Source of the DNA: Streptomyces uncialis
GTDB taxonomy: Bacteria; Actinomycetota; Actinomycetes; Streptomycetales; Streptomycetaceae
NCBI RefSeq assembly: GCF_001905345.1
Contig: NZ_LFBV01000010.1
Location: 124,001-188,000, forward strand
Length of the DNA: 64,000 bases
Direction: 5' to 3'
Shown here: positions 45,138 through 62,520 of the stretch, one piece after another
Position numbering within the stretch: position 1 is the first letter of the stretch
Layout of the letters: every line of letters begins with the position of its first letter
Position numbers and translations under genes: made by a program
Notes under the pieces: model-generated
What the model was told of the DNA's origin: nothing
Database searches by the model: none
What the model saw: only the letters and a program-made list of their open reading frames with translations

Positions 45138-46490
45138 TCAGGTCCAGGTGCCGAGTTCGCCGCGCAACCGCTGCGCGCGCAGGACGAGTTCGAGTTCGAA
45201 CCGGCGGTCCGGGTCGTCGATCTCGTCGCCCCACAGCTCCCTGATCTGCCGCAGCCGGTAGCGCACGGTCTGCGGATGGACGCCGAGCCGGCCGGCGACC
45301 TCGGGGGCGCCGCCCCGGGTCTCCAGCCAGGCGAGCAGGGTCTCCGCGAGCCGCCGCCCATGGGTGCGTCCGCAGTCGGCGAGCGGGGCGAGGGCCCGGC
45401 GGGCGAGGTCGTCGATCAGTTCCTCGGGCTGGAGCAGCACCAGGGCCTGGGTGTGCTCCGTGCACAGCAGCACCTCCCCGGTGGGCAGCAGTCCGCGTTC
45501 CATCAGCCGGACGGCCGCCTCGGCCCAGCGCAGCGACTTCGCCGCGTCGACCAGCGGCACCGGCGGACCGATCGCGCCGGACCAGCCGGTCATCGCCCGG
45601 CGCAGCAGTTCCGGGCGGCCCGCCGCGTCCGGTTCGGGCACGACCACCCGGGGCAGTTCCGCCTCCATGTCCAGCAGCACGCCCTGGCCGACGGCCGGCG
45701 CCACCGCTTCCCGCGCGGGCCGCAGCAGCACACCCGCGGCGACCGTCGTGGGCAGCGGCCAGCCGATCCGCGCGGCGCGCTCCGCGAGGGCGGCGGCGAA
45801 CTCGGGCGGTCCGTGCGGGCCGTGCGCGGCCTCGGGACCGGCCGGGGAACGGACGCGTTCGGCGAGCAGGAGTTCCATCAGCTTGCGCTGGAGCCGCAGC
45901 CGCTCCCCCGCCTGCCGGGCGGCGGCCTCCGCGTAGCCCCGCACCGACTGGTCGACGAGTCCGTCGAGGTACTCGTAGCCCGCGTCGGCGAGTTCGTACA
46001 TGGCGGGCGGCGGGATGTCGACGCGCTGGCCGATCTCCGCGAGGCGGCGCCACGCGAGCCGGACGCCCATCCGGTAGATCGCCTGGAGCGAGTCGAGGGT
46101 GCGCCCGCCGAGTCCCTCGCCGCGGCCGAAGTCCTGGAAGACCTCGGGATGGACCCGGGGCCGGTCCTCGGGGGAATCCAGATGCTGGACGAAGACCTCG
46201 ATGGCGCGGCGGATGCCGACGAGGGACTTGGGCTCGCCGGAGTCGTCGAGGATGACGGGCAGATGGGGGTACTCACGGCGGATCTCGCCGAGGATCTCCT
46301 CGGCGAGGACGGGCACCTCGGCCATGGCGAGCGCGGCGAACTGCCGCACCTGGGTCCGGGGCACGTCGTGCCAGGCCGACAGCGGTCCCCCGGGGTGCGG
46401 GCCGGGGCCGGGCGGCACGGGGCCGGCCGGTGCGCCCGGTGGTCCGGGGGTGCCCCGGCGAGCCGGGGACGGGGAGGGGACGACGGCCAC
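45138..46490 (-). CDS. PucR/CdaR-family transcriptional regulator
   Basis: 450 residues from GTG. A Pro/Gly-rich N-terminus is followed by a helical domain (RRAIEVFVQHLDSPEDRPRVHPEVF), a GGDEF-like middle, and the C-terminal helix-turn-helix APEVAGRLGVHPQTVRYRLRQIRELWG, the same DNA-binding class as FasR. It lies between the MarR region and the envelope locus and follows the small membrane gene by three bases. Targets are unknown; control of the divergent DUF3068 gene is possible. Confidence 0.9.
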   Translation of the reverse strand: MAVVPSPSPARRGTPGPPGAPAGPVPPGPGPHPGGPLSAWHDVPRTQVRQFAALAMAEVPVLAEEILGEIRREYPHLPVILDDSGEPKSLVGIRRAIEVFVQHLDSPEDRPRVHPEVFQDFGRGEGLGGRTLDSLQAIYRMGVRLAWRRLAEIGQRVDIPPPAMYELADAGYEYLDGLVDQSVRGYAEAAARQAGERLRLQRKLMELLLAERVRSPAGPEAAHGPHGPPEFAAALAERAARIGWPLPTTVAAGVLLRPAREAVAPAVGQGVLLDMEAELPRVVVPEPDAAGRPELLRRAMTGWSGAIGPPVPLVDAAKSLRWAEAAVRLMERGLLPTGEVLLCTEHTQALVLLQPEELIDDLARRALAPLADCGRTHGRRLAETLLAWLETRGGAPEVAGRLGVHPQTVRYRLRQIRELWGDEIDDPDRRFELELVLRAQRLRGELGTWT

Positions 46491-46493
46491 GGG

Positions 46494-46646
46494 TCAGCGC
46501 TCCTGCGGGGCCGTCTCGTACGTCACGAGCGGGGTGTTGGGCTGTTCGGGGGTGGCGTCGAGCAGTGCCACGACACCGACGGCGGTGCCCGCGGCTAGGG
46601 CGGCGGCGACCACGACGGTGATCGTGGCGGCGAGCAGTCTGGGCAT
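46494..46646 (-). CDS. Small membrane protein, DUF2613-like
   Basis: 50 residues from ATG at 46646: a single hydrophobic segment (LLAATITVVVAAALAAGTAV) and a short polar tail (TPLVTYETAPQER). Size and build resemble DUF2613 small secreted proteins, which in mycobacteria sit beside aftD; here an AftD-like gene is 4 kb away. An in-frame ATG at 46709 would give 71 residues. Identification is tentative; the gene is coupled to the PucR gene. Confidence 0.55.
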   Translation of the reverse strand: MPRLLAATITVVVAAALAAGTAVGVVALLDATPEQPNTPLVTYETAPQER

Positions 46647-46968
46647 GTGCTGGGTCCAGCCTCTCCGGTCGAAAGGTCGTCCCCACCCTGGAAGATCCAC
46701 ACGATCCATGATCCGTACGCTGTGCGCCGCTGGTCACAGGCTTGAGGGCCATCGGCCGTCCTGTGGCGACGCGTGCCGGTCCCGTCCGGCTGGGGTCAGT
46801 CTCGACAAGCATTGACACCTAGTCAAGGGTGCGCCTACGGTTCCCGGCCCATAACGCGCCCTCGCTTTTCCTCGCCGCGCGCTCACGCTCCGTCACCTCG
46901 TGACGGCGTCCTCCTTCGATCCACCTCACCGTGTCGAGCTGTCCCGACCCCTCCCCTGGAGTGCCCGG

Positions 46969-47946
46969 ATGCGACGTACCGCCTCACCCCTGTCCCTCGT
47001 CCTGCTCGGCGCAGGCACCTTCCTGCTGGTGCTCGCCGCGATGCTCGCCTGGTACGTGGAACCGCGTGCCCAGCGCACCCCCATAGACACCGACGTCACC
47101 ACTGTCTTCGCAGGTCAGGGCAGCTACTTCGATACGAAGAAGGTCAAGACCGTCAAGGGCACACCGCTCACCATCACCCGTAAGGTGCGCGGCGACGTGG
47201 CCGACAGCGAGAAGAGCGGCCGGGCCATCTGGGACGTCGCGACGAGCGTCGACACGGACGCCTCGCTGCCGGCCGCCGATCCGCACGACGCGCTCCAGTG
47301 GACGCTGGAACGCTGGGTGACCGACCGGAAGACCAACCGTCCGGTCCACTGCTGCGAGGAGAGCCCCTATTTCGAGGGCGAGGCGTATCTGAAGTTCCCG
47401 TTCGGCGTGGAGAAGCGCTCGTACAGCTGGTGGGACAACACGCTCGGCGGGACCGTGCAGCTCGCCTACCAGGGCACGAAGAAGATCCAGGGCCATGAGG
47501 GATACCGGTTCACGGCGAAGGTCGACGCGGTGAAGACCGGCACACGGCAGGTGCCCGGAATGCTCGTCGGGCAGCCCGCGCGGGGCCAGGTGCTGGCCGA
47601 GGAGTGGTACGCCAACCACGGCATCGAACTGGTCGCCGACCAGCGCACGGGCCGCATCCTGTTCGCGGCGATCGGCCCCCGCAAGACGCTGCGGGCGCCC
47701 GGCGGGGACACCGACGAGGTGGTGCTGCTGGAGAGCGAGCGCATCGCGTTCACGAAGGACACCCAGAAGAAGCAGGTCGAGCTGGCCGCCGCGGACGGAC
47801 GCAGGCTGGTCCTGGTGGGGCTGACGGTGCCGGTGGGGGCGGGGGTGCTGGGCCTGCTGCTCGCCGCCGCGGGCACGGTGCTCGTCGTCCGGGGGCGCCG
47901 GAAGGACGACGAGGCGGCTCCGGCGGCCGAACTGTCACCCAGCTGA
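46969..47946 (+). CDS. DUF3068 (porin PorA family-like) membrane-anchored protein
   Basis: 325 residues from ATG at 46969 (GGAG nine bases upstream). One membrane segment at each end (LVLLGAGTFLLVLAAMLAWYV and LTVPVGAGVLGLLLAAAGTVL, landmarks) brackets an extracellular domain of about 250 residues with a vicinal Cys pair (HCCEES). This fits DUF3068, whose mycobacterial member Rv0227c lies in the arabinan locus. Function is unknown. It opens the rightward envelope locus and is followed by 600 bases of repeats before the glycosyltransferase. Confidence 0.85.
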   Translation: MRRTASPLSLVLLGAGTFLLVLAAMLAWYVEPRAQRTPIDTDVTTVFAGQGSYFDTKKVKTVKGTPLTITRKVRGDVADSEKSGRAIWDVATSVDTDASLPAADPHDALQWTLERWVTDRKTNRPVHCCEESPYFEGEAYLKFPFGVEKRSYSWWDNTLGGTVQLAYQGTKKIQGHEGYRFTAKVDAVKTGTRQVPGMLVGQPARGQVLAEEWYANHGIELVADQRTGRILFAAIGPRKTLRAPGGDTDEVVLLESERIAFTKDTQKKQVELAAADGRRLVLVGLTVPVGAGVLGLLLAAAGTVLVVRGRRKDDEAAPAAELSPS

Positions 47947-48548
47947 GGGGGTACGGGGGGTAACAGGTGCCGAACTTGTCACCTCGGTGAGTAGCCGCAG
48001 CGAACGGCTGGGCGAAAACTGTCCATCCCACCCAACACCATCCGTGCAGCACCCCAGCACATTCGAGCACGACCCCGTCCCGTACCGGGGTCCGCTCGCC
48101 CCGTTCCGAACCGTTCCGAACCGTTCCGTGACCTCGGTGCGACCCGTACCGACCGCCCTCGCCGTTTCCCGTACGGCGTCCGGCGTTCCGTACCGCGCCG
48201 CACCGCCCGCCCCTCTCCACCCGTACCGCCCATCCCCACCCGTACCGCTCGGAGTACCCGACCGGTGCCGGGACCGCGCCGCACCCTCTTCCCCCCGGGG
48301 CGCGGTCCCGGCACCGCGGTGTCATGCACCGCACAGAAACGGCGAACCCGCCGGACCGCGAACCACCGCCCGTCACCGCACCGCACCGCACCGCTCAGCA
48401 CGGCACGGCACGGCACCACCGCACCACCCGCACCGCTCACGACCGCACCGCACCGCACCACCACCGCACCGCACCGCACCGCACCGCACCGACCCCGTTC
48501 GTCGACCGTCCCCACGGTTGCTCACCCCGAGACGAGTTGGAGCACCAC
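47947..48548. repeat. CCGCA-rich low-complexity region upstream of the glycosyltransferase
   Basis: 602 bases with no supported gene. From 48370 to about 48495 it is made of ACCGC and CACCGCACCG units; the left part has repeated CGTACCG and GTTCCGAACC. A promoter for the glycosyltransferase operon must lie here or upstream of DUF3068, but no clear box is seen. Confidence 0.65.
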
Positions 48549-50087
48549 ATGCCCCAGCACGTGCCCGCTTCGCCGCGCACGGCCGCACCGCGGTCCGCGC
48601 AGCCACCGGCGGCGCCGCCCGCAACGCCCCGCCGCATCGTGTTCCTCACCCGTCGTGACCTCGGCAACCCGGCCGCCGGGGGCTCCGAACTGCTCGTCGA
48701 CAAACTCGCCGACGGCCTCACCCGGCTCGGGCACCAGGTGACCCTGGTGTGCGGCGGGCCGGCCGCCCGCCGCGACTACCGGGTCGTGTCGGCGGGCGGC
48801 GACCTCGGTCACTATCTGCGGGCCCGCCGGACCCTGGCCCGCCAGGTCGGTGACTGCGATCTGCTGGTCGAGGTGTGCAACGGCATGCCCTACCTGGCGC
48901 CGCTCTGGCACCGGGGTCCCACCCTCTGTCTGGTCAACCACGTCCACACCGATCTGTGGGACATGCGCTTCGGCGGGGGTCCCCTCGCCCCCGCCGGACG
49001 GCTCGGCCGCAAGCTGGAGCACTGGGCGCTGCGGGAGGGCCAGCGGCGCAATCTGATGGTCGCCGTGTCGTCCTCCACCGCCGACGCGCTGGGCGACATC
49101 GGCGTGGAACGCGACCGCGTCCGGGTCGTCCACAACGGGGTCGAGGAACCGGGACCCCAACTCCCCCGCTCCGGCGAGCCGCTGTTCCTCGCGATGGGAC
49201 GGCTCGTCGAGTACAAGCGGATCGATCTGCTGCTGCGGCTGTGGGAGCGGGTCCGGCCGGTGACCGGCGGCCGGCTCGTCATCGTCGGGGACGGCCCCGA
49301 ACGCGCCCGGCTGGAACGGATGGCCGGTCCCGGGGTCGAGTTCGCCGGACATGTCACGGAGGCGGAGAAGCACCGTCTGCTGTGCGCGGCCTGGCTGTTG
49401 CTGCATCCCTCGGCCGTCGAGGGCTGGGGGCTGGTGGTCACCGAGGCGGCGATGTGCTCGACCCCGACCGTCGGCTTCGACGTACCCGGGCTGCGGGACT
49501 CCGTCGACGACGGGGTGACCGGAGTGCTCGCCCGGGGCGAGAGCTCGTTCGCCGCCGCCTGGTGCTCGCTGGCCCTCAGCGAGCGGCGGCGGGCGTCGAT
49601 GGGCGCCGCCGCGCGTGAGCGGGCCGCCGGTTACACGTGGGCGAACACGGTGCGCGCGTTCCGGGACGTGGCCGTGGAGGCCGCGACCGGACAGCGCCCC
49701 GCCCCCGTGACGGCGTCCGCGCCGATCCCCGCGCCCGTACCGGTGGCGACCGTACCCGCCGCACGAATCCCGTCCGGCGGGCCGGTCCCGAGCGGCGGGC
49801 CGGTTCCGAGCGGTGGGCCCGTCCGGTCCCGGTCCGGTGGGTCCGCCCCGTCCGGCGGCACGGTCCTGACCGCCGCACCCGCACCCACACCCGTGCCCGC
49901 CGCACCCGCGCCCGTATCCGCCGCACCCGTCCCCGTCCCCACCGTGCCCGCCGCGCGGACACCCCTGTCCGCGGCGTCCGCGGCCCCCGTCCCCGCGGCC
50001 CCCGTCCCCGCTCCCCTGTCCGTCCCTGCGTCCGCCCGGGTCCCGGGTGCCGACGAGGGCGGCGCACCGCCGTCCCGGCGGAAGTGA
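48549..50087 (+). CDS. GT4-family glycosyltransferase with Ala/Pro-rich tail
   Basis: 512 residues. A GT-B fold retaining enzyme: RRIVFLTRRDLGNPAAGGSE at the acceptor N-domain (landmark NPAAGGSE), VSSSTADAL, then MGRLVEYKRIDLLLRLW, IVGDGPERARLE and the donor-site EX7E-type stretch HPSAVEGWGLVVTEAAMCSTP (landmarks SAVEGWGLVVTEA). It probably uses a nucleotide sugar on the inner face of the membrane. Residues from about 385 are a low-complexity tail with VPSGGP units. It is six bases ahead of the methyltransferase. Its closest known setting is mycobacterial Rv0225, beside Rv0224c and DUF3068. Confidence 0.9.
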   Translation: MPQHVPASPRTAAPRSAQPPAAPPATPRRIVFLTRRDLGNPAAGGSELLVDKLADGLTRLGHQVTLVCGGPAARRDYRVVSAGGDLGHYLRARRTLARQVGDCDLLVEVCNGMPYLAPLWHRGPTLCLVNHVHTDLWDMRFGGGPLAPAGRLGRKLEHWALREGQRRNLMVAVSSSTADALGDIGVERDRVRVVHNGVEEPGPQLPRSGEPLFLAMGRLVEYKRIDLLLRLWERVRPVTGGRLVIVGDGPERARLERMAGPGVEFAGHVTEAEKHRLLCAAWLLLHPSAVEGWGLVVTEAAMCSTPTVGFDVPGLRDSVDDGVTGVLARGESSFAAAWCSLALSERRRASMGAAARERAAGYTWANTVRAFRDVAVEAATGQRPAPVTASAPIPAPVPVATVPAARIPSGGPVPSGGPVPSGGPVRSRSGGSAPSGGTVLTAAPAPTPVPAAPAPVSAAPVPVPTVPAARTPLSAASAAPVPAAPVPAPLSVPASARVPGADEGGAPPSRRK

Positions 50088-50093
50088 GGTCCG

Positions 50094-50900
50094 ATGCAAG
50101 CCCCTGGTCCAAGAGTCGGCCGTACCGGTGCGGGCCGCCCCCCGGCGCGCCCCGCGGACGGTCCGCGGCGGCCGTGGCGGAAGGACCCCTCCTTCCGGCG
50201 GTCGGCCGCGCTGTTCCGCGCGTTCCTGCGGGAACAGGACGACCCCGAGGCGTGCTACACCCTGCTCGCCCAGGACGCCGCCGACCAGGTCGAGGCGTAC
50301 GGCGGGCCGCTCGACGGGCGGACCGTCGTCGACATCGGCGGTGGCGGCGGGTACTTCACCCGGGAGTTCCGGCGGCGCGGCGCGTGTGCGGCGCTGTTCG
50401 AGCCGGACCCCCGGGAACTGGGCGGCTCCCCGCCCGAGGGCGCGGTCGTCGCGGACGGCTATCTGCTGCCGCTCGCGGACGGCACCGCCGATGTGTGTTT
50501 CTCCTCGAACGTCCTGGAGCACGTGGACGATCCGCAGACCTTCCTCAGTGAGATGGTCCGCGTCACCCGCCCCGGCGGGCTGATCTATGTCTCGTTCACC
50601 AACTGGCTCTCCCCGTGGGGCGGTCACGAGGGGGCGCCCTGGCACTATCTGGGCGCCCGCCGGGCGCGGGACCGCTACGAGCGGCGCTCCGGCCGCCCCG
50701 CCAAGCACATCCTCGGCGAGAACCTCTTCGCCGTGCACGTAGGTCCGACGCTGCGCCAGGTGAGGGCGCGGACCGATGTCACCGTGGTGTCCGCCCGGTC
50801 CCGCTACTGGCCGTTCCTGGCCGGTGCGGTGACCCGGGTGCCGGGCCTGCGGGAATTCGCCACCTGGAACCTTCTCCTCATCCTCAGGCGGTGTCCATGA
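50094..50900 (+). CDS. SAM-dependent methyltransferase (Rv0224c-like)
   Basis: 268 residues. The class I fold has motif I VVDIGGGGGYFTREF, an acidic EPD after beta-2, motif II FSSNVLEHVDDP and RVTRPGGLIYVSFTNWLSPWGGHE. A His-containing GHEGAPWHYLG stretch is typical of this envelope-linked group. It probably methylates a sugar or lipid carrier made by the neighbouring glycosyltransferase. ATGA overlap with the AftD-like gene couples their translation. Confidence 0.88.
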   Translation: MQAPGPRVGRTGAGRPPARPADGPRRPWRKDPSFRRSAALFRAFLREQDDPEACYTLLAQDAADQVEAYGGPLDGRTVVDIGGGGGYFTREFRRRGACAALFEPDPRELGGSPPEGAVVADGYLLPLADGTADVCFSSNVLEHVDDPQTFLSEMVRVTRPGGLIYVSFTNWLSPWGGHEGAPWHYLGARRARDRYERRSGRPAKHILGENLFAVHVGPTLRQVRARTDVTVVSARSRYWPFLAGAVTRVPGLREFATWNLLLILRRCP

Positions 50901-53900
50901 CCAGTACGGCCCCGGCGGCCCAGGCTCCCCCTCCGGCCGCCCCGCGCACCACCAGCACCACCGAAGGCCCTCCCGGGGTGCCCCGGTCGCGCCGGTGGCT
51001 CGCCGGTTTCTGGGCCGTGGTGTTCACGCTGTTCCTGGTGGTGTCACCAGGACGGATGACGTTCGACACCAAGCTCGGGGTCACGGTCGACCCCTGGCAG
51101 TTCCTCGGCGACCTCGGCCAGTTGTGGCAGGACCGGGCGGGCTTCGGCACGCTCACCGACCAGTACATCGGCTACGCGTTCCCGATGCTCCCCTACTACG
51201 GGCTCGCCGATCTGGCGCAGCTCCCGGTGTGGCTCGCGGAGCGGCTGTGGCTGTCGATCGTGGTGACGGCCGCGTTCTGGGGCGCGCTGCGGCTCATGGA
51301 ACGCCTCGCCGTGGGCAACCGCTCGACGCGGCTGCTGGGCGCGGCGGTGTACGCGCTGTGGCCGACGTACACGATCGTCGTCGGTTCCACGTCGGCGGCG
51401 GCGCTGCCCGGCGCGCTGCTGCCGTGGGTGCTGCTGCCGCTGGTCGACGACCGGTACAGCGCGCGGGTCGCGGCCTTGCGTTCCGCGCTGCTCGTGGTGT
51501 GCATGGGCGGGGTGAACGCGGCGTCGACGCTGGCGTCGCTGCTGCCGGTGGCGCTGTATCTGCTGACCCGGCCGCGCGGTCCGCGGCGGCGGGCGCTGAT
51601 CCTGTGGTGGGTGCCGGGGGTGCTGCTGGCGACCCTGTGGTGGGTGGTCCCGCTGCTGCTGCTCGGGGTGTACGGCGAGAACTTCCTGCCGTACGTGGAG
51701 ACCTCCCGGGTCACCACCGACACGATGGCGGCGACGGAGGCGCTGCGCGGCGCCGGGAACTGGGTCGCGTATCTGAACTTCGGTGAGCCGTGGCTGCCCG
51801 CCGGGTGGAGTGTCGCGTCGTCGGTGCCGGTGATCGTGGCGTCGGCGGTCGCCGCCGCGCTGGGTCTCGCGGGGCTGGCCCGCCGGGACGTGCCGGAGCG
51901 GCGCTGGCTGACGCTGACGGTGCTGACGGTGGCGTTGCTGACCCTGGCCGGGTACGGCGGCACGTTCGGCGGTCCGTTCCACGGCTTCGTGCAGGATCTG
52001 CTGGACGGTGTGCTGGTGCCGTTCCGCAACATCTACAAGTTCCAGACGGGCCTCGCGCTCGCGCTGGTGCTGGGTCTGACGCATCTGCTGGCCGTCGCGG
52101 TGCGTGCGCACGGGGCGCGGCCGGTGCGGGGCCGCCGCTGGGCGCCCGCGGTCGCCGCGGTGCTCGTGGTGCCGGGTCTCGCGCTGCCGTACGTCAACGG
52201 CTCGATCCTCCAGCCGGGTTCGTTCCAGAAGCTGCCCGATTACTGGGAGACCACGGCCGGCTGGCTGGAGAAGAACACCCCGGACAGCCGGGCGCTGGTG
52301 GTGCCCGCGACCGCGCACGGCGTCTACACGTGGGGCTCCCCCATCGACCAGCCGCTGGACGTGCTCGCCAAGTCCCGCTGGGCGCAGCGCGACTACGTCC
52401 CGTTCGGGACGGCGGGCAACCGGCGGGCGATGGACGCCGTGGAGCAGGCGCTGCTGACCGGTGCCGAGGTGCCGGGGCTGCGGGACTTCCTGAGCCGGGC
52501 GGGGCTGCACCATGTCGTCGTCCGCAACGACCTGGACCCCGACCAGATCGGATACGTCCCGACGACCACGGTGAAGCGGACCCTGGAGCAGTCCGGGTAC
52601 GAGCGCGTCGAGGGCTTCGGCCCGGTGATGACCGGCGGGCGGATCGCGGACGACACCCCCCTCCAGGTCGAGGGGCTGTTCGCCCGGCAGCGCGCGGTGG
52701 AGATCTACGAGCCGGCGGCCGGTACGAAGCGCCCCGGCCAGGCGGGGATCTACGCCGCCGCCGACACGGCCGTGGTGTCCGGCGGACCGGAGACGCTGCT
52801 GCCGCTGTCGGGCGACCCGTCGCTGCGCGACCGTCCGACGGTCCTGACCGGTGACGGGCACCCGGGCGTCGACAAGCCCGCGCTCCAGGTGGTCGGGGAC
52901 GGGCTGCGGCGCGCCGACACCCGCTTCGGCCTGGTGAACACCAACACCTCGTACACGTACACCGAGGACGAGCGGAACCACTCCGGGAGTGTGCAGGACC
53001 CGGGTGACGAGCCGCACCAGATCCTGCCGAGGAGCGGTGTCCGGCATCAGACGGTCGCCGAACTGCGGGGCGCCCGCGCGGTGACCGCGTCGTCCAGCGG
53101 CAACTGGCTGTTCCATCTGCCGCAGTACGACCCGGTGAACGCGTTCGACGGGAACCCGGACACGGCGTGGGCCGTGGGCACCTCGGGGGACGCGGCCGGT
53201 GAGTGGCTGCGGATCGCGTTCGAGGGAACGACGGAGATGCCGTCCTCGCTGACGGTCACCCCGCTGCCGCAGAACGGGACCCGGGCCGCGCCGACGAAGG
53301 TGCGGGTGGAGACCGAGCGCGGCAGCGAGACGAGTCCGCTGCGCGCCAACGGGAAGCCCCAGGACATCAAGTCCCCGCCGGGTGGGACGGACTGGCTGAG
53401 GATCACGATCGTGGAGACCGAGTCGGGCGGCCCCGGGCTGACCGGTGCCGGGTTCTCGGAGATCGAGATCCCGGATGTGTCGGTGACCCGGATGCTGAAG
53501 CTGCCCACGGACGCCGAGGACGCCACCCGCGCGGGTGCCGAGACGGTGTCGCTGCACCGGACGGCCGACCCGGGCGGGCTGTCCCCCGCCGGTACGGAGT
53601 CGGGGCTGCACCGCTCCTTCACCACCTCCGACGGCGGGGCGCACCAGGTCAGGATGAGCGCGGTACCGGTCCCCGGCGAGGCGCTGGACAAGCTGCTGTA
53701 CGGGGCGGGCACCGAGCGGCCCCGCAACCAGGTCGTCGCGACGGCCGCCTCCACCGCGCGCCTCGGCGCGCAGCTGTCGGCGCGCAATCTCACCGACGGG
53801 GATCTGACGACCGCGTGGATCGCCGGGGACGAGCCGGTGGTCCGGCTGGCCTGGCGGGACAAGCGGCCGGTGGACCGGCTGGTGCTGACCGGCGCGGGCG

Positions 53901-55429
53901 GCCTGTCGGCCCGCCCCACGAAGGTCGAGATCAGTTCGCCGGACGGCGCGGCGATCGCGAACGTGGACGACAACGGCTGGGTGCGTTTCGACCCGATCAC
54001 CACCGATGAGCTGGAGATCAGGGTGACCGCCACCTCCGAGGTCACCCTGCACAACCCGGTCGCCGGTGACGATCTGCGGCTGCCGGTCGGCCTGACGGAG
54101 ATCACCGTCCCCGCGCTGGAGCCCGACGGCTACCGCACCGAACGGCCGTCCGACGGGCGGAGCTTCACCCTGGAGTGCGGCGAGGGTCCGGCGGTCGCGA
54201 TCGACGGGGTCCTCCACGCGACGAGCGCCAAGGGCGTCGTCCAGGACCTGGTGGAACGGCGGCCCGTCGATGTGACGCTGTGCCAGCGGGACGAGCCGGA
54301 CGCGGAACTCACGCTCGGCACGGGCACGCACACACTGGAGGCGGGCGACGAGGGTCCGCTGGCCGTCACCGCGGCGACCCTCACCCGGGGCGAGGCCGCC
54401 GCACCCGCGACGGCCACGCGTGAGCTGAAGGTCGACGACTGGCTCGGCGACCGCCGTCAGCTCACCGTCGGCTCCGGCGCGGAGTCGTACCTGACGACGT
54501 ACGAGAACGTCAACGAGGGCTGGAAGGCGACCCTCGACGGCAAGGAGCTGACCTCGGTCCGGCTCGACGGCTGGCAGCAGGGCTTCCGCGTCCCCGAGGG
54601 CGAGGGCGGCAAGGTCACCCTGAGTTACGAGCCCGCGCGGACGTACGAGATCGGGCTGGTCGTCGGGTTCGCCGCGCTGCTCGGTCTGGTCGGTCTGGTG
54701 CTGTGGCGCCGCCAGGAGGAGAACCCGCACGGCCCGTCGGCGGCGGTGAACGGTCCGGGGACCCTCCTCGGCACGGTCGCGCTGACCCTGGTGGCCGTGG
54801 TGATCGCGGGCTGGTTCGCCCTGCTCGTCCCGGTCCTGGCGGTGCTCGCGCTGCGCCGTCACACCCTGCTGGTGCCGATCGCGTTCGTGTCGATGACGGC
54901 CGCGGGTGTCGTGGCGGCGACCGGCGCGGGCGAGGCTCCGGCGGCGGGCGAGGGGTCGTTCGGCCCGCTGGCGCAGGTGCTGGCGCTGATCGCGCTGTTC
55001 GCGGCGCTGGTGACGGTCGGCGGGGGCGGCGGCGGACACCGCCGCCGGACCGCCGGTCCGGCGGCGGCCGGTCCCACGGGTACGGCGGTGCTTCCGGCGC
55101 AGCCGTACGGGGCGCCCGCGGCGCAGCCCGCGCCGGCGGCGACGCCCACCGCGCGTCCTTCGGGTCCGTCGGTTCCTGCCGGTCCTGCCGGTCCTGCCGG
55201 TCAGGGTTCCGCTTCGGCCGTCGCAGGTTCGGACACGGCTCCGACCGCACCTGCCGCACCTGCCGCACCTGCCGCACCTGCCGCACCTGCGGGAACGTCC
55301 GGGGCGGGTCGAGCGGACGGGCCGGACGAGGCGAAGCGTACGGCTGGGCAGGACGGCCGGGACGGGCGGACCGTCACCGCGCGGGGGCCCGGCTCCGGGG
55401 CACGGGACGCGGGCGGGGGCGCTCGGTGA
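50897..55429 (+). CDS. AftD-like alpha-(1->3)-arabinofuranosyltransferase family protein (DUF3367)
   Basis: 1510 residues, one of the largest proteins here. The N-terminal 430 or so residues are a GT-C membrane domain with about ten helices; DTKLGVTVDPWQFL near residue 55 holds the Asp typical of GT-C first loops, and FRNIYKFQTGLAL is an AftD family motif. A long extracellular part follows, with F5/8-type-C (carbohydrate-binding) folds near residues 720-850 (PVNAFDGNPDTAWAV) and 950-1060 (NLTDGDLTTAWIAGD). Two to three C-terminal helices and an Ala/Pro tail close it. In mycobacteria AftD adds arabinose in arabinan; streptomycetes lack that polymer, so donor and acceptor here are unknown. It overlaps both neighbours by four bases or less. 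Confidence 0.9.
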   Translation: MTSTAPAAQAPPPAAPRTTSTTEGPPGVPRSRRWLAGFWAVVFTLFLVVSPGRMTFDTKLGVTVDPWQFLGDLGQLWQDRAGFGTLTDQYIGYAFPMLPYYGLADLAQLPVWLAERLWLSIVVTAAFWGALRLMERLAVGNRSTRLLGAAVYALWPTYTIVVGSTSAAALPGALLPWVLLPLVDDRYSARVAALRSALLVVCMGGVNAASTLASLLPVALYLLTRPRGPRRRALILWWVPGVLLATLWWVVPLLLLGVYGENFLPYVETSRVTTDTMAATEALRGAGNWVAYLNFGEPWLPAGWSVASSVPVIVASAVAAALGLAGLARRDVPERRWLTLTVLTVALLTLAGYGGTFGGPFHGFVQDLLDGVLVPFRNIYKFQTGLALALVLGLTHLLAVAVRAHGARPVRGRRWAPAVAAVLVVPGLALPYVNGSILQPGSFQKLPDYWETTAGWLEKNTPDSRALVVPATAHGVYTWGSPIDQPLDVLAKSRWAQRDYVPFGTAGNRRAMDAVEQALLTGAEVPGLRDFLSRAGLHHVVVRNDLDPDQIGYVPTTTVKRTLEQSGYERVEGFGPVMTGGRIADDTPLQVEGLFARQRAVEIYEPAAGTKRPGQAGIYAAADTAVVSGGPETLLPLSGDPSLRDRPTVLTGDGHPGVDKPALQVVGDGLRRADTRFGLVNTNTSYTYTEDERNHSGSVQDPGDEPHQILPRSGVRHQTVAELRGARAVTASSSGNWLFHLPQYDPVNAFDGNPDTAWAVGTSGDAAGEWLRIAFEGTTEMPSSLTVTPLPQNGTRAAPTKVRVETERGSETSPLRANGKPQDIKSPPGGTDWLRITIVETESGGPGLTGAGFSEIEIPDVSVTRMLKLPTDAEDATRAGAETVSLHRTADPGGLSPAGTESGLHRSFTTSDGGAHQVRMSAVPVPGEALDKLLYGAGTERPRNQVVATAASTARLGAQLSARNLTDGDLTTAWIAGDEPVVRLAWRDKRPVDRLVLTGAGGLSARPTKVEISSPDGAAIANVDDNGWVRFDPITTDELEIRVTATSEVTLHNPVAGDDLRLPVGLTEITVPALEPDGYRTERPSDGRSFTLECGEGPAVAIDGVLHATSAKGVVQDLVERRPVDVTLCQRDEPDAELTLGTGTHTLEAGDEGPLAVTAATLTRGEAAAPATATRELKVDDWLGDRRQLTVGSGAESYLTTYENVNEGWKATLDGKELTSVRLDGWQQGFRVPEGEGGKVTLSYEPARTYEIGLVVGFAALLGLVGLVLWRRQEENPHGPSAAVNGPGTLLGTVALTLVAVVIAGWFALLVPVLAVLALRRHTLLVPIAFVSMTAAGVVAATGAGEAPAAGEGSFGPLAQVLALIALFAALVTVGGGGGGHRRRTAGPAAAGPTGTAVLPAQPYGAPAAQPAPAATPTARPSGPSVPAGPAGPAGQGSASAVAGSDTAPTAPAAPAAPAAPAAPAGTSGAGRADGPDEAKRTAGQDGRDGRTVTARGPGSGARDAGGGAR
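55246..55296. repeat. CCTGCCGCA tandem repeat in the AftD-like tail
   Basis: Five or so units of GCACCTGCC encode Ala-Pro-Ala repeats near the C-terminus, after the last membrane segment. Confidence 0.75.
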
Positions 55430-56814
55430 CCGCTGTGGACGGTCCGGCCCGGCCCGCCGCACCGGCGGGCCCGGTCCGGGTGCCCTTCCCCGTCGTCGAC
55501 GAGGTGTCGCGGCACTGCGTCCACGAGACGGAGCCGGACACCGTCCATATCGAGGTGCGGCTGCCGGGGCGGCCCGACCCGGAACGGCTGCGGCGGGCGT
55601 TCGGCGAGGCCCTGCGGCGCCACCCGCGCGCCTTGATGCGGGAGGCGCCGGGCCCCTGGTACCGGCGGCGCTACAGCTGGGAGCTGACGAACGGTCCCGA
55701 CACGGAGGTGGTGACGTTCCCCGCGCCGGGACCCGGCGCGCTGGAGCGGGCGAGGGCCCGTGCCCTCGCGACGGCACCCCCGCTGTCGGCGTCCCCGCCG
55801 ATCCGGCTGGAGGCGGTCGAGGACCCCGCGCGGCCCGGCGGGACGGTGCTCTTCCTGACGCTCAACCACACCGCGCTGGACGGTCCGGCCGGTATCCGTG
55901 TCCTCGCGACCGCCGCCGGGCTGTACGGCGGCGCCGGTGACGACGCGTCGTCCCCGCCCGCCCCGGCCCGGTGCGCCCCCGGGCCGGGCCCGGCCGACCC
56001 GGCGCCGGGCCCCTCCCCCTGGGCGCGGCCCGCCCGGCTGGCCCCCGGCACCCCGGCCCGGCCCGCCGGGGCGTCCGGCCCCGGCAACGGGATGCTCGTC
56101 CTCGACCTCGATGTCCCGCGCCGCCCGCCCGGCGCCCCGTACACCGTGAACGACCAGCTGATGGTGGCCACCGCGCTCACCGTGGCGCACTGGAACCGGA
56201 CGCGGGGGGAACGGCCGCGCCCGGTGCGGATCACCATGCCGGTGGACGACCGGCCGCGCGGGCCCGGGATGCCGATCGGGAACGGCACCCGGCTGGTCGA
56301 GGTGCCGTTCACCGCCGCGGAACTGCGGCCCGCCGCCTGGGGCGGCGACGAGTGGCACCCGGCGGCGGTGCGCGGACTGCTGACGCGGACCGCGGACCGT
56401 ACCCGCGCGCTGAAGGCGGCGGAGCGGCCGCAACTCGGGCGCGGGGCGACGCTGCTGACCGCGCCGGTGCTCCCGGTGCTCTGGCGGGCGGCCGTCACCC
56501 GGCTGCTGCGCCGCGCGCTGACGCCCTGGATGTCCACCACCCTGGTGAGCAACATCGGACGGGTGCCGTACCCGCTGGACTTCGGTGACGCGGGCCGGTC
56601 CGACGCGCTGTGGATCTCCGCGCCCGCGCGGATGCCCCGGGGGTTCACGGTGACCGTCGCCTCCACCGCCGGACGGCTGCATGTGGTGCTGCGCTGGTCG
56701 ACGGCGCTGCTCGGGGACGCGGACGGCGCGCGGCTGCGGGAACTGTTCGAGCGGTATCTGGACCTGACCCGGCCCCCGGTGGCCGGGGACGGGGCGCGGG
56801 AGGGGACCCGATGA
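55426..56814 (+). CDS. Condensation-domain / PapA-like acyltransferase
   Basis: 462 residues from GTG, overlapping the AftD-like stop (GTGA). The catalytic HxxxDG motif is NHTALDGPAG near residue 145, in the setting of the chloramphenicol-acetyltransferase / condensation superfamily. The second half has TVNDQLMVATALTVAHWNR and ITMPVDDRP, as in stand-alone acyltransferases such as PapA and WS/DGAT enzymes. There is no carrier protein or adenylation domain nearby, so it more likely moves an acyl group to a sugar or lipid than makes peptide bonds. A Pro/Gly-rich loop splits the two halves. Confidence 0.82.
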   Translation: MTAVDGPARPAAPAGPVRVPFPVVDEVSRHCVHETEPDTVHIEVRLPGRPDPERLRRAFGEALRRHPRALMREAPGPWYRRRYSWELTNGPDTEVVTFPAPGPGALERARARALATAPPLSASPPIRLEAVEDPARPGGTVLFLTLNHTALDGPAGIRVLATAAGLYGGAGDDASSPPAPARCAPGPGPADPAPGPSPWARPARLAPGTPARPAGASGPGNGMLVLDLDVPRRPPGAPYTVNDQLMVATALTVAHWNRTRGERPRPVRITMPVDDRPRGPGMPIGNGTRLVEVPFTAAELRPAAWGGDEWHPAAVRGLLTRTADRTRALKAAERPQLGRGATLLTAPVLPVLWRAAVTRLLRRALTPWMSTTLVSNIGRVPYPLDFGDAGRSDALWISAPARMPRGFTVTVASTAGRLHVVLRWSTALLGDADGARLRELFERYLDLTRPPVAGDGAREGTR

Positions 56815-57602
56815 CACGGACCACGCGGGACGGCACGGGGACCGGTGACCGGGCGGCGGACGACGGACGGGGCGGGGACGGCAGCGCGCCGCGCGGACTG
56901 CGGGACTTCTACGAGGACCCGGGGGTGCCCGTCGCGTCGGGGGACGCCCGCAGTCTGCGGCAGGCGCGGATGCTGGCCGCCGCCCTCGGCCCCGCCGCCG
57001 GACGCCCGGCCGTCGTCCTGGACGTGGGCTGCGGCGACGGCACCGCGGCGCGGACCGCGGCGCCGCTGCTGGCCGGGCACCGGGTCATCGGCGTCGACTG
57101 GTCGCAGGACGCGCTGCGCCGGGCCCGCGCCCACCTCACGGACGTGGTGCGCGGCGAACTCACCGACGGGGGGCTGCCGCTGCGCTCCGGCTCGGCGGAC
57201 GCCGTGCTGTTCAGCGAGGTCATCGAGCACCTCGTCGACCCCGACAGCGCCCTGGACGAGCTGCGCCGGGTACTGCGGCCCGGCGGGCATCTGATGCTGT
57301 CCACCCCGAACCTGGCCGCCTGGTACAACCGGGCGCTGCTCCTCGCGGGGGTGCAGCCCGTGTTCTCCGAGGTCAGCCTGCGGGGCATCCATGGGCGGCC
57401 CGGCCGGGAGGTCGTCGGTCATCTGCGGCTCTACACGGCACGCGCGCTGCGGGAGTTCGTCGCGGCGTCCGGTTTCGAGGTGGTCCGGCTCGCGGGCGCC
57501 CCGTTCCACGGGGTGCCGCGTCCGCTGCGCGGCCTGGACCGGCTGGCCTGCGCGGCGCCGTCCCTCTCCTCGATCCTGCTGCTGCACGCGCGAAGGACAT
57601 AG
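56811..57602 (+). CDS. SAM-dependent methyltransferase (second of the locus)
   Basis: 263 residues. Motif I is VVLDVGCGDGTAARTA, motif II AVLFSEVIEHLVDPDSAL, then RVLRPGGHLMLSTPNLAAWYNR. The last part (HGRPGREVVGHLRLYTARALREF) is the Methyltransf_11-type sugar/lipid O-methylase pattern. ATGA overlap with the acyltransferase. It is not a close copy of the first methyltransferase of the locus, so two separate positions may be methylated. Confidence 0.88.
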   Translation: MTRTTRDGTGTGDRAADDGRGGDGSAPRGLRDFYEDPGVPVASGDARSLRQARMLAAALGPAAGRPAVVLDVGCGDGTAARTAAPLLAGHRVIGVDWSQDALRRARAHLTDVVRGELTDGGLPLRSGSADAVLFSEVIEHLVDPDSALDELRRVLRPGGHLMLSTPNLAAWYNRALLLAGVQPVFSEVSLRGIHGRPGREVVGHLRLYTARALREFVAASGFEVVRLAGAPFHGVPRPLRGLDRLACAAPSLSSILLLHARRT

Positions 57603-57604
57603 CC

Positions 57605-58567
57605 GTGGGGTGGGGGGTGGCCGCCGCGCTGCTCGCGAACGTGCTCTACAGCACCGGGTTCGTGCTGGAGAAACGGGCGCTCGCGCGGCTGCCCGCGGTG
57701 AGCGTGCGCGAACCGGTGCGGCTGCTGTGGCTGGTGCTGCGCAGTCCGCTGTGGATCGGCGGCGCGCTGGCGCTGGCCGCCGGGTTCGGCGCGCAGCTCG
57801 CCGTGTACCGGACGCTGCCGATCGCCGCCGCGCAGGGCATCTTCGTGTCGGGGCTCGTACTGCTCCTGCTGCTGTCGTCGCGGGTCCTCGGTGAGGAGAC
57901 CTCGGGGCGTGAGCGGTACGCGATCGGGGCGATCCTGCTGGCGCTGCTGATGGTCGTGCTGTCGCTGCCGCACGGCGCCGGGTCCGCGGAGGCGGTGGGC
58001 GCGGGGGCCCCGGCCGGGGTGATCCTTCTGGTGTGCGTGCCCACGCTCGCGGCGGGCCTCGGGCTGTACGCGGTGACCGAGCGGCGGGCCGGGCGGCGGC
58101 ACCGGATGCCGACGGCCGGTGTCGAGTACGGGGTCGCCGTCGGGCTGCTCTACGGGGTCAGCTCGCTGGCGATCAAAGGGGTCTCCGGGCATCTGCCGGA
58201 CCTCGCGCGGGCACCGGGCGGGGCGCTGCTCGGGCTGCTCGGCTCGCCGTACCCCTATCTGCTGCTGTGCACCGGGGTGTTCGGGCTGATCATGTCGCAG
58301 GCGGCGCTCCAGCGCTGCCGGGCGTCCTTGATCGTGCCGGTGTGCACCACGGTGTCCTGTGTGTTCTCGGCCGTCCTCGGGACCCTCGCGTTCGGTGAGG
58401 CGCTGCCCGGTGATCCGGTGCGGCTCGCGCTGCGGGTCGCGGGGACGGTCCTCGCGGTGTCGGTCCTCCTCGCGATGCCGAAGCACGACTCCCCGCCCGG
58501 TCCCGCCGTACCCGACCGTCCCGCCGTCCCGTCCCCGACCCCGCCGTGCCCGACCGCAAGGAGCTGA
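57605..58567 (+). CDS. DMT/EamA-like integral membrane protein
   Basis: 320 residues from GTG, two bases past the previous stop. About nine to ten hydrophobic helices in two EamA-like halves (VLYSTGFVLEKRALARL ... GLLYGVSSLAIKGVSGH). The marks fit the DMT superfamily. Proteins like this flip lipid-linked sugars in some bacteria, so in this setting it could move a glycolipid intermediate across the membrane; this is inference. The C-terminus is Pro-rich and cytoplasmic. Confidence 0.82.
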   Translation: MGWGVAAALLANVLYSTGFVLEKRALARLPAVSVREPVRLLWLVLRSPLWIGGALALAAGFGAQLAVYRTLPIAAAQGIFVSGLVLLLLLSSRVLGEETSGRERYAIGAILLALLMVVLSLPHGAGSAEAVGAGAPAGVILLVCVPTLAAGLGLYAVTERRAGRRHRMPTAGVEYGVAVGLLYGVSSLAIKGVSGHLPDLARAPGGALLGLLGSPYPYLLLCTGVFGLIMSQAALQRCRASLIVPVCTTVSCVFSAVLGTLAFGEALPGDPVRLALRVAGTVLAVSVLLAMPKHDSPPGPAVPDRPAVPSPTPPCPTARS

Positions 58568-58572
58568 CCCCC

Positions 58573-58803
58573 ATGAGTCCTGACGATCCGCTGCTCGACC
58601 TTCTCGTGTGCCCGCTGGACAAGGGCGCGCTGCGTCTGGTCGGTCCCGAGGGGGGTGCCCCCGGGACGGCCCTGTACAACCCGCGGCTGCGGCGGCTGTA
58701 CCCGGTGGTGGACGGGGTGCCGCAGTTGCTGCCCGCGTCGGGGACGGCGGTGACGGACGCGGAGCACGAGCGGTTCACGGCCGGGGCCCCGGCGGACGGC
58801 TGA
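58573..58803 (+). CDS. Trm112-family small protein
   Basis: 76 residues, AAGGAG nine bases upstream. It has LLDLLVCPLDKGALRLV and RRLYPVVDGVPQLLP, the Trm112 / YcaR pattern. Only one Cys of the usual zinc-binding set is seen, so it probably binds no zinc. In other organisms Trm112 activates methyltransferases; two methyltransferases lie just upstream, so it may be their partner. Confidence 0.82.
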   Translation: MSPDDPLLDLLVCPLDKGALRLVGPEGGAPGTALYNPRLRRLYPVVDGVPQLLPASGTAVTDAEHERFTAGAPADG

Positions 58804-58838
58804 GCGGTTCCCCGGCGCCGGTGCGGCACGATGGGGGC

Positions 58839-59420
58839 ATGCCCCGTACCCCGTCCGTGCCCGGTGCCCCGTTCGGTCCGCTGGAGTTCCAGCTGGTGCT
58901 GCTGCGGCGGATGGCCGACCACCAACCGGATCTGGTGGCGGACGCGCGACGGACGCTCGGGGTGTCCGTCACGGAGATGCGCGAGGCGAACCGGCGGTGG
59001 CAGGCGATGTCCCGGTCCCCGCGGGGGCGGGGGGCCGCCGGGCGTTACCGGTCGGTGCTGGGGCCGCCCGAGTCGCGGTCCGCCCGGCGGGTCGGGGACC
59101 TGGAGTGCGAGGCGCTGCTGTGGCCGGTGCCGTTGTGGCCGGACCTGCGGTTCGAGGTGCTGACGGGGCCCGGTGGGGCGGTGTGGAACGAGTGGCTCGT
59201 ACGGGCGCCGGGGTGTGCGGGGCCCGTGCTGCGGGGGGTCGGTGACCTCGTGCCCTGGTCGGTGACCGTAGACGAGGTCGCCTCGGCGTTCCCGCCGGCG
59301 CGGCCTTTGCAGGGGTCGGCGCCCGGGCGGTGGGGACTGGCGTTCACCGCGAGCGGTGCGCCCTATGCGTACACAGCGGAGTTCACGTGGGGCCTCCTCC
59401 AGCGGATCTCCCCCGGGTGA
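58839..59420 (+). CDS. Hypothetical protein
   Basis: 193 residues, not recognised. The N-terminal part is helical (PLEFQLVLLRRMADHQPDLVADARRTLG, landmarks LEFQLVLLRRM), the middle has LECEALLWPVPLWPDLRFEVL, and the end AYTAEFTWGLLQ. No signal peptide or membrane segment. A CACGAT box lies seven bases before the ATG, which suggests a leaderless mRNA separate from the envelope operon. Codon use is normal for the region, so I take it as a real gene. Confidence 0.75.
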   Translation: MPRTPSVPGAPFGPLEFQLVLLRRMADHQPDLVADARRTLGVSVTEMREANRRWQAMSRSPRGRGAAGRYRSVLGPPESRSARRVGDLECEALLWPVPLWPDLRFEVLTGPGGAVWNEWLVRAPGCAGPVLRGVGDLVPWSVTVDEVASAFPPARPLQGSAPGRWGLAFTASGAPYAYTAEFTWGLLQRISPG

Positions 59421-61122: not shown

Positions 61123-61196
61123 GGCGGAGCTCCTGGTGGAAGGCGGGCGGACGGACCGGACGCAGGGTAACTCTCCGGATGTCCGGGACACCACGC

Positions 61197-61227
61197 TTTA
61201 CCTTGCCCCTCGGTCAAGCCCCAGGAT
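61197..61227 (+). promoter_or_regulatory. MerR-type promoter of the MerR-PP2C gene
   Basis: -35 TTTACC (61197-61202), 19-base spacer, -10 CAGGAT (61222-61227). CTTG ... CAAG arms (CTTGCCCCTCGGTCAAG) form an imperfect dyad around the spacer. The layout implies that the product binds and activates its own promoter. Confidence 0.7.
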
Positions 61228-61259
61228 CGGGGACAGGACGAGGAGCGGGGTGGGCGGTC

Positions 61260-62438: not shown

Positions 62439-62520
62439 GGAGGGTGCAAGCTTGCGGGTGCGGCGTCCGGCCGCGCGGGGCGGTGACCGTCCCGGACCTC
62501 CCAGACGAGGAGCAGCACGC

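Follow-up and report, generated by a model that had tools for sequence, protein, structure and literature searches.

The subject of the current work is a run of eight adjacent genes in a 64,000-nucleotide stretch of the Streptomyces uncialis genome (hereafter the window; contig C2, positions 124001-188000 of the 8.9-Mb genome G000). These genes, all on the plus strand, encode in order the DUF3068 protein PgfA (also named LmcA), a GT4 glycosyltransferase, a class I methyltransferase (MT1), a GT-C glycosyltransferase of the AftD family, an acyltransferase of the condensation fold, a second class I methyltransferase (MT2), a DMT-like membrane protein and a Trm112-like protein. The cassette is one unit in Streptomyces, and we give an even chance to the reading that an old actinobacterial module, which makes and exports an envelope glycolipid or lipoglycan, is present here in an acylating form specific to this lineage. 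Its product may be an undescribed surface glycolipid.

Conservation of the cassette in Streptomyces

The first-pass annotation of this DNA had described eight families in one direction, with overlaps of four bases or fewer joining MT1, AftD, the acyltransferase and MT2. All eight were recovered in that order and on the plus strand, and the overlaps are of exactly four bases, being ATGA for MT1/AftD, GTGA for AftD/acyltransferase and ATGA for acyltransferase/MT2. By means of AftD, 49 Streptomyces loci were fetched, of which the 37 covering a full 20 kb were counted (12 loci shorter than 20 kb being left out). The complete set of eight genes, in the same order and on the same strand, is retained in 35 of these 37 AftD-picked loci, the remaining two being devoid of a recognisable DMT gene; PgfA, GT4, MT1, the acyltransferase, MT2 and Trm112 are each present in 37/37, and the DMT gene in 35/37. 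That order and strand are kept across the AftD-picked loci argues against a chance grouping. A further set of loci (the named loci) was picked by the acyltransferase and consists of the best 80 of 306 acyltransferase relatives, all of which are from Streptomyces and in which the presence of the acyltransferase is given by construction. Here, 72 loci of at least 19 kb were counted (eight shorter ones being left out), with all eight genes in order in 67, PgfA in 70, MT2 in 72, the DMT gene in 70 and Trm112 in 71.

The distribution of AftD, PgfA, MmpA and the acyltransferase was determined across 121 sampled Streptomyces genomes, 47 of which contain AftD. The acyltransferase, whose presence was scored at more than 150 bits with a model built mostly from cassette copies, occurs in 46 of the 47 AftD-positive genomes versus none of the 74 AftD-negative ones, and among the matches listed the best one outside cassettes reaches 56.5 bits. 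In the sole AftD-positive exception (G407), AftD is located on a contig of 5.6 kb. Given this co-occurrence with AftD, we reject a merely accidental proximity of the acyltransferase. A further cassette-like locus, with an additional AftD of its own, is present in three genomes (G359, G406 and G456).

The pathway idea of the first-pass annotation had been made dependent on the acyltransferase, MT2 and the DMT gene being conserved with AftD, and this is the case within Streptomyces (37, 37 and 35 of the 37 loci). Neighbourhoods outside Streptomyces were assessed in 51 loci from 49 of the 75 non-Streptomyces AftD genomes of a class sample (one genome, G283, supplied three), which were hand-chosen for family spread, so that the derived counts do not come from a random sample. 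The acyltransferase family was detected in three of these 51 loci, a DMT relative in four and Trm112 in none, and the MT2 profile gave weak matches there, which hit MT1-like or other methyltransferases.

Relation to the tmaT locus of mycobacteria and corynebacteria

The class sample comprises 178 genomes, including 14 Streptomyces, and is the single set behind the class-wide counts of AftD, PgfA, DPPR synthase, DprE1, Emb and MmpA; among 14 control genomes, C. glutamicum was the sole match in the AftD, PgfA and MmpA searches. The proposed homology to the mycobacterial region Rv0224c-Rv0236c was borne out, considering that PgfA (46969-47946, plus strand) scores 308.3 bits against the equivalog family NF053601 (cut-off 160) and 254 bits against DUF3068 (PF11271), that AftD has homologues with solved structures, and that MtrP-like and GT4-like genes are neighbours. 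The parallel with arabinan synthesis which had been drawn through AftD stands as regards homology; however, the closer parallel is with acylation and transport of trehalose glycolipids at the tmaT locus (PMC8698533), and the core genes are found in many families. The mycobacterial counterpart is best named the tmaT locus, encompassing TmaT, LmcA/PgfA, MmpA, MtrP, GT4 and AftD.

This locus is associated with trehalose-glycolipid acylation and transport as well as with lipoglycans, and in C. glutamicum the acetylation and transport of a trehalose glycolipid require TmaT, MtrP and MmpA, while lipomannan and lipoarabinomannan (LM/LAM) are affected by loss of LmcA (PgfA) (PMC8698533). In M. smegmatis, PgfA acts with MmpL3 in mycolate trafficking, the authors being doubtful about a true orthology of LmcA and PgfA (PMC9678360), and the crystal structure displays CD36-like cavities inside which no lipid was seen (PMC8972800). 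Two-hybrid data paired Rv0227c with TmaT and with AftD (PMC6656915). By homology, cassette PgfA would be a CD36-like periplasmic lipid carrier; a phmmer search of PgfA against PDB sequences returned nothing at E 0.1, despite the published M. smegmatis LmcA structure.

The Streptomyces cassette shares with the tmaT locus of C. glutamicum (PMC8698533, PMC7775120) and with mycobacterial Rv0224c-Rv0236c the presence of PgfA/LmcA, GT4, an MtrP-like methyltransferase and AftD in one neighbourhood. These four occur together in the window and in all 37 AftD-picked loci, and their homologues recur in the class loci. In contrast to the tmaT locus, the Streptomyces operon is devoid of a TmaT-like AT3 acyltransferase and of MmpA, and instead contains the condensation-fold acyltransferase, MT2, the DMT-like protein and Trm112; the cassette acyltransferase is predicted to be of a soluble type, whereas mycobacterial TmaT is a membrane acetyltransferase. 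MmpA was detected in none of the 121 Streptomyces genomes, that of the window included, and a TmaT-like AT3 in none of the 49 fetched Streptomyces AftD loci, AT3 elsewhere in these genomes not having been searched.

Within the class sample AftD is present in 79 genomes, PgfA over its cut-off in 74 and both in 64, with PgfA located no more than 20 kb from AftD in 59 of the 79 AftD genomes. The clusters found in the 51 non-Streptomyces loci are AftD in 44, GT4 in 42, PgfA in 40, the TmaT kind of AT3 in 32 and MmpA in 32 (MmpA in loci being counted by clustering, since the MmpA-type profile also scores AftD weakly), together with an MtrP-like methyltransferase in 21 by clustering and 39 by profile. 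MmpA exceeds its curated cut-off in 59 of the 178 genomes, 47 of which lie outside f3 (f3, f60, f68, f69 and f77 being family labels, of which f3 is taken to be mycobacteria-like from its Emb and DUF2613 proteins). This is contrary to the statement in PMC8698533 that MmpA has no homology to proteins outside corynebacteria and mycobacteria. The Emb arabinosyltransferases (PF04602) were detected in 12 of the 178 genomes, all of f3. Given this spread of MmpA, AftD and PgfA versus the f3-only occurrence of Emb, the module therefore exists in families without Emb.

The expectation that Streptomyces would be without arabinogalactan machinery was supported, in that no Emb is present in the 14 class-sample Streptomyces genomes and neither DPPR synthase nor DprE1 exceeds its cut-off in the window genome. 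On the same grounds, we reject the idea that the cassette simply duplicates the arabinan locus of mycobacteria. Neither mycolates nor arabinogalactan are known products of Streptomyces. Among the titles listed in searches of an open-access library, none deals with this cassette, nor with the module outside Corynebacterineae.

AftD and its sugar donor

The AftD-family protein (50897-55429, plus strand) scores about 754-757 bits against PF11847 (cut-off 26), carries an F5/8-type C carbohydrate-binding domain and matches PDB entries 6wbx and 6w98 with an E-value of about 2.5e-131. It belongs to the same family as mycobacterial AftD (6w98, 6wbx, 6wby) along nearly the whole protein, the carbohydrate-binding region and the conserved acid, Arg and Lys positions being covered as well; the donor supply differs, and among 107 aligned AftDs Glu occupies the aligned acid position in 22. 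The first-pass annotation had let its proposal hang on AftD having kept the GT-C catalytic residues. An acid is indeed retained at the GT-C position following transmembrane helix 1 (TM1) in 103 of the 107 aligned AftDs (Asp in 81, Glu in 22, Gly in two and a gap in two), the window protein having Asp57 (counted from 50897; codon at 51065-51067, plus strand), and the Glu rows comprise 18 from Streptomyces and four from f68. By analogy with the GT-C fold this acid would be catalytic, its placement being based on a general statement on GT-C enzymes (PMC12041299). Because a further Glu, Arg, Lys and Asp are also kept in 104-105 of the 107 rows, AftD looks like a working enzyme. In L131 and L132 (both f77), three AftD-like genes are present per 20-kb stretch, one in each on a very long branch.

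An arabinofuranosyltransferase would be supplied with decaprenyl-phosphoryl arabinose (DPA), formed via Rv3806c and DprE1/E2, and searches for DPPR synthase and DprE1 did not reveal this supply in the window genome. The best DPPR synthase match reaches 39.3 bits versus a cut-off of 207, and no DprE1 was found over the cut-off of 500 (best E-value 3.3e-15), DprE2 not having been searched. Moreover, 45 of the 79 AftD genomes of the class sample are without both DPPR synthase and DprE1. Judged from gene content, the donor of AftD in the window genome is probably something other than DPA, and AftD there probably does not serve as an arabinosyltransferase that draws on the DPPR/DprE1 pathway. A likeness also exists to the three-component pentofuranose glycosylation systems (GT136; PMC11127046), which likewise combine a GT-C enzyme with a carbohydrate-binding module, act extracytoplasmically and use a lipid-linked donor; in contrast to the cassette, a polyprenyl-phosphoribose synthase is encoded in their own loci along with a MATE flippase (PMC11127046). 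Neither of these was matched among the nine proteins of the region that were scanned.

The acyltransferase

The acyltransferase (55426-56814, plus strand) is not covered by any curated Pfam or NCBIfam family over cut-off, PapA_C reaching 15.2 bits versus the required 30. In its AlphaFold2 model (pLDDT 87.8), the protein is predicted to have the two-lobe fold of the condensation, WS/DGAT and PapA enzymes together with an HxxxD motif; no variation was seen in the latter (H148-x3-D152) across the 42 aligned rows. The model was superimposed on 8s6l with a Z-score of 32.2 (3.2 Å over 385 residues), on the WS/DGAT enzyme 6chj with 27.1 (3.7 Å over 337 residues) and on PapA5 (1q9j) with 22.9 (3.4 Å over 336 residues). 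The cassette protein thus has the fold over 336-385 residues and HxxxD in common with WS/DGAT, PapA5 and stand-alone condensation-fold acyltransferases, but it is at 13-20% identity to these three structures, is without a curated family and, unlike that group, has its high scores confined to AftD-positive genomes among the 121 sampled.

Outside Streptomyces, an acyltransferase relative of 54-99 bits is encoded directly after AftD in L143 and L147, and within 2 kb of it in L146, among the seven f69 loci fetched. Six of the seven f69 AftDs form the group nearest to Streptomyces AftD (SH-aLRT 91, not starred, with a midpoint root). From this gene adjacency and AftD grouping, the pairing of AftD with the acyltransferase may therefore be older than Streptomyces.

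Genomic position and origin of the module

In the non-Streptomyces loci, the module is found near polA (cluster C8, 11 of the 51 loci) and/or rpsA (cluster C6, 17 of the 51). PgfA is present in 91 of the 121 Streptomyces genomes, 44 of which are without AftD. Twenty regions with such a lone PgfA were fetched, 15 of a high-scoring type and five of a divergent type located elsewhere, and in all 15 high-scoring-type loci (L240-L254) the lone PgfA is positioned between polA and rpsA. Its neighbours there are a transglycosylase-like SLT-domain protein and, further on, a methyltransferase. The five others (L255-L259) represent a third, divergent PgfA type, with an MPAB/Lcp-type oxygenase as neighbour in L257 and related neighbours in L258 and L259.

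Trees of AftD and PgfA were built with 18 chosen Streptomyces cassette loci plus the window, and among the rows sampled both AftD and cassette PgfA form a single clade. The PgfA tree holds no f69 row and is silent on the grouping of AftD with f69. Cassette PgfA and lone PgfA constitute separate clades, each with 100/100 support, which rules out that they are the same gene; the window genome contains cassette PgfA only. The pattern would fit a decayed ancestral site at polA-rpsA together with a cassette that was relocated or separately acquired, this being the direction that we infer. In a broader scenario, which we hold at somewhat less than an even chance, PgfA, MmpA, TmaT, MtrP, GT4 and AftD would form an older actinobacterial glycolipid-export module, often near polA/rpsA, whose use for mycolate and arabinan is derived in mycobacteria; Streptomyces would have lost the module at that site except for the lone PgfA, and about two in five would carry a rewired cassette elsewhere, with the acyltransferase and DMT protein replacing TmaT and MmpA, for an undescribed surface glycolipid.

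Other cassette members and flanking genes

The GT4 glycosyltransferase is encoded at 48549-50087 on the plus strand (Glycos_transf_1, 93.6 bits), in an open reading frame that is open from 48324. Judged from the onset of homology, 48549 is the more likely start over 48324, as is 46969 over 46900 for PgfA. The GT4 profile derived from cluster C0, in which several GT4 genes may be lumped together, matched in 45 of the 51 loci outside Streptomyces and in 46 of the 49 from within the genus. MT1 (50094-50900, plus strand; Methyltransf_11, 61 bits) resembles MtrP/Rv0224c, and tblastn recovered it at 44-54% identity in about 36 of the 51 non-Streptomyces AftD loci, with 44% in the mycobacteria-like L150. 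MT2 (56811-57602, plus strand; Methyltransf_23, 79.6 bits) has a D-x-GCGDG segment that is invariant in 23 of 23 aligned rows. The DMT/NIPA-like membrane protein (57605-58567, plus strand), recognised through a sub-threshold DMT_1 profile, is a candidate flippase, and its AlphaFold2 model is all-helical (pLDDT 86.2). The Trm112-like protein (58573-58803, plus strand; PF03966, 33.9 bits versus a cut-off of 22) is a possible methyltransferase activator.

Two companions were missed by the first-pass annotation, namely a divergent PucR-type regulator (45138-46490, minus strand; Pfam HTH_30, 69.3 bits), which is present in 34 of the 37 AftD-picked and 70 of the 72 named loci, and a ninth gene of about 190 amino acids at a frequently conserved downstream position (about 58839-59420, plus strand), found in 23 of the 37 and 67 of the 72. 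No Pfam or NCBIfam family was matched by the latter (58836-59420). The DUF2613-like mini-protein that had been noted just upstream of the cassette is a 50-amino-acid protein with one hydrophobic stretch (46494-46646) and is conserved in 26 of the 37 and 62 of the 72 loci. It lies on the minus strand and does not match Pfam DUF2613 (PF11021), but the alignment of its Streptomyces members with f3 DUF2613-type proteins by hhalign yielded 79% probability and a score of 28.0, versus 15.1 for the best of 23 decoy segments, in support of a likeness. A DUF2613-type protein is situated just upstream of AftD in all six f3 loci examined (Pfam tested and confirmed two), so that this mini-protein may be a feature in common between the Streptomyces cassette and the f3 loci.

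Further downstream, a single protein (61179-62438) combines a MerR-type DNA-binding domain with a PP2C phosphatase domain. It is followed at 62398-63999 by an AMP-binding enzyme of the acyl-activating type, which starts 3.6 kb past the cassette, recurs downstream in some relatives and could act as a supplier of the acyl donor. No polyketide synthase (PKS) or nonribosomal peptide synthetase (NRPS) module was found among ten neighbouring proteins scanned.

Proposed function and alternative explanations

In the model proposed here for the catalytic steps, their order and their product, the GT4 enzyme would build a sugar head on a lipid in the cytosol, after which MT1 and MT2, the latter possibly aided by Trm112, would methylate or otherwise condition the glycolipid. 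The acyltransferase would then esterify it, in the slot that is held in mycobacteria by the membrane acetyltransferase TmaT, and the DMT protein would transfer it across the membrane, in the slot of MmpA. Outside the membrane the lipid would be carried by PgfA, and AftD would attach at least one sugar, drawn from a polyprenyl-phosphate donor of other than Rv3806c/DprE1 origin. Considering that MmpA is missing from the sampled Streptomyces genomes and a TmaT-like gene from the fetched loci, alongside the presence of an HxxxD acyltransferase, a replacement is proposed, by which the acyltransferase and the DMT protein would assume the lost roles. By analogy, what the cassette and the tmaT locus have in common would be a glycolipid that receives an acyl group, crosses the membrane, has PgfA as its carrier and is coupled to AftD, a notion for which our confidence and our doubt are in balance.

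A number of observations weigh against this model. The DMT protein scores below the cut-offs of its profiles (31.4 bits versus 50 for NF038012 DMT_1, and 21.4 versus 26.2 for NIPA), a structure search with its model gave no match at E 0.001, and its gene is missing from two of the 37 AftD-picked loci. Entry 6i1r, a DMT-type nucleotide-sugar transporter, appeared at rank 49 with an E-value of 0.34, which is not evidence. A DMT relative is also located near AftD in four of 11 f68 loci in which MmpA is present as well, and a simple swap of MmpA for the DMT protein is therefore not favoured. A TmaT-like AT3 gene is found about 4-8 kb downstream on the opposite strand in eight of the 80 named loci, PgfA precedes GT4 by about 600 bases and may constitute its own transcription unit, and the condensation fold of the acyltransferase also serves in peptide synthesis. 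The donor search, finally, was limited, among the polyprenyl-phosphate-sugar pathways, to DPPR synthase and DprE1.

The strong homology to the solved mycobacterial AftD speaks for an alternative in which cassette AftD would have remained a transferase of pentofuranosyl units (arabinose or ribose) and would decorate a wall polymer, with DPA or its ribose equivalent (DPR) being made elsewhere or by an unrecognised pathway. DPPR synthase is encoded within about 12 kb of AftD, often with DprE1, in ten genomes of f68, f77 and f60 (G302, G292, G244, G332, G271, G312, G352, G327, G296 and G225), and a pentofuranose donor is therefore normal in some lineages. Likewise, three of the four AftD-positive Streptomyces of the class sample possess one or both genes away from AftD (G128 and G161 both, G107 DprE1 only), which makes DPA possible in relatives of the window genome. 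These points also count against the proposed non-DPA donor. The pair does not track AftD in Streptomyces, however, since both genes are over cut-off in eight of the 14 class-sample genomes, being two of the four with AftD versus six of the ten without, and this, the DPPR synthase and DprE1 result for the window genome (39.3 versus 207 bits for the former) and the 45 of 79 AftD genomes devoid of both genes make a pentofuranosyl transferase unlikely here.

A comparably low probability is assigned to the cassette being a patchily distributed gene cluster that makes a glycolipid-like secondary metabolite for secretion, AftD and PgfA having been recruited for its export and glycosylation. Its occurrence in only 47 of 121 Streptomyces, the condensation fold that is typical of NRPS domains, the second cassette-like loci with AftD in G359, G406 and G456, and the recurrent AMP-binding ligase gene 3.6 kb downstream would all agree with such a cluster, but the flanks are recurrent (PucR in 34 of the 37 AftD-picked loci), AftD and cassette PgfA are each of a single clade in the rows sampled, the ten neighbouring proteins scanned include no PKS or NRPS module, and the genes are akin to a conserved envelope module. 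Most doubtful of all is that the locus would modify surface proteins or an existing cell-wall glycopolymer, of the teichoic or teichulosonic acid kind, instead of generating a lipid-anchored product. Glycopolymers are present in Streptomyces walls (PMC11481543), and AftD bears a glycan-binding F5/8-type C domain; yet PgfA, by homology a lipid-cavity protein (PMC8972800), is present in all 37 AftD-picked loci, and the scan of nine cassette proteins gave no match to an LCP ligase or polymerase family.

Significance

PgfA, MmpA, TmaT and AftD have been studied in mycobacteria and corynebacteria, where several of them are reported to be essential and where they are read as machinery for mycolates, lipoglycans and arabinan. 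Considering that these proteins are jointly present in families without Emb, and that AftD occurs without the DPA pathway, their basic job is suggested to be something other than mycolate or arabinan work. That job could be sought in two tractable hosts, Streptomyces and C. glutamicum, of which Streptomyces is free of a mycolate phenotype, and the cassette described here could reveal an unknown component of the Streptomyces envelope.

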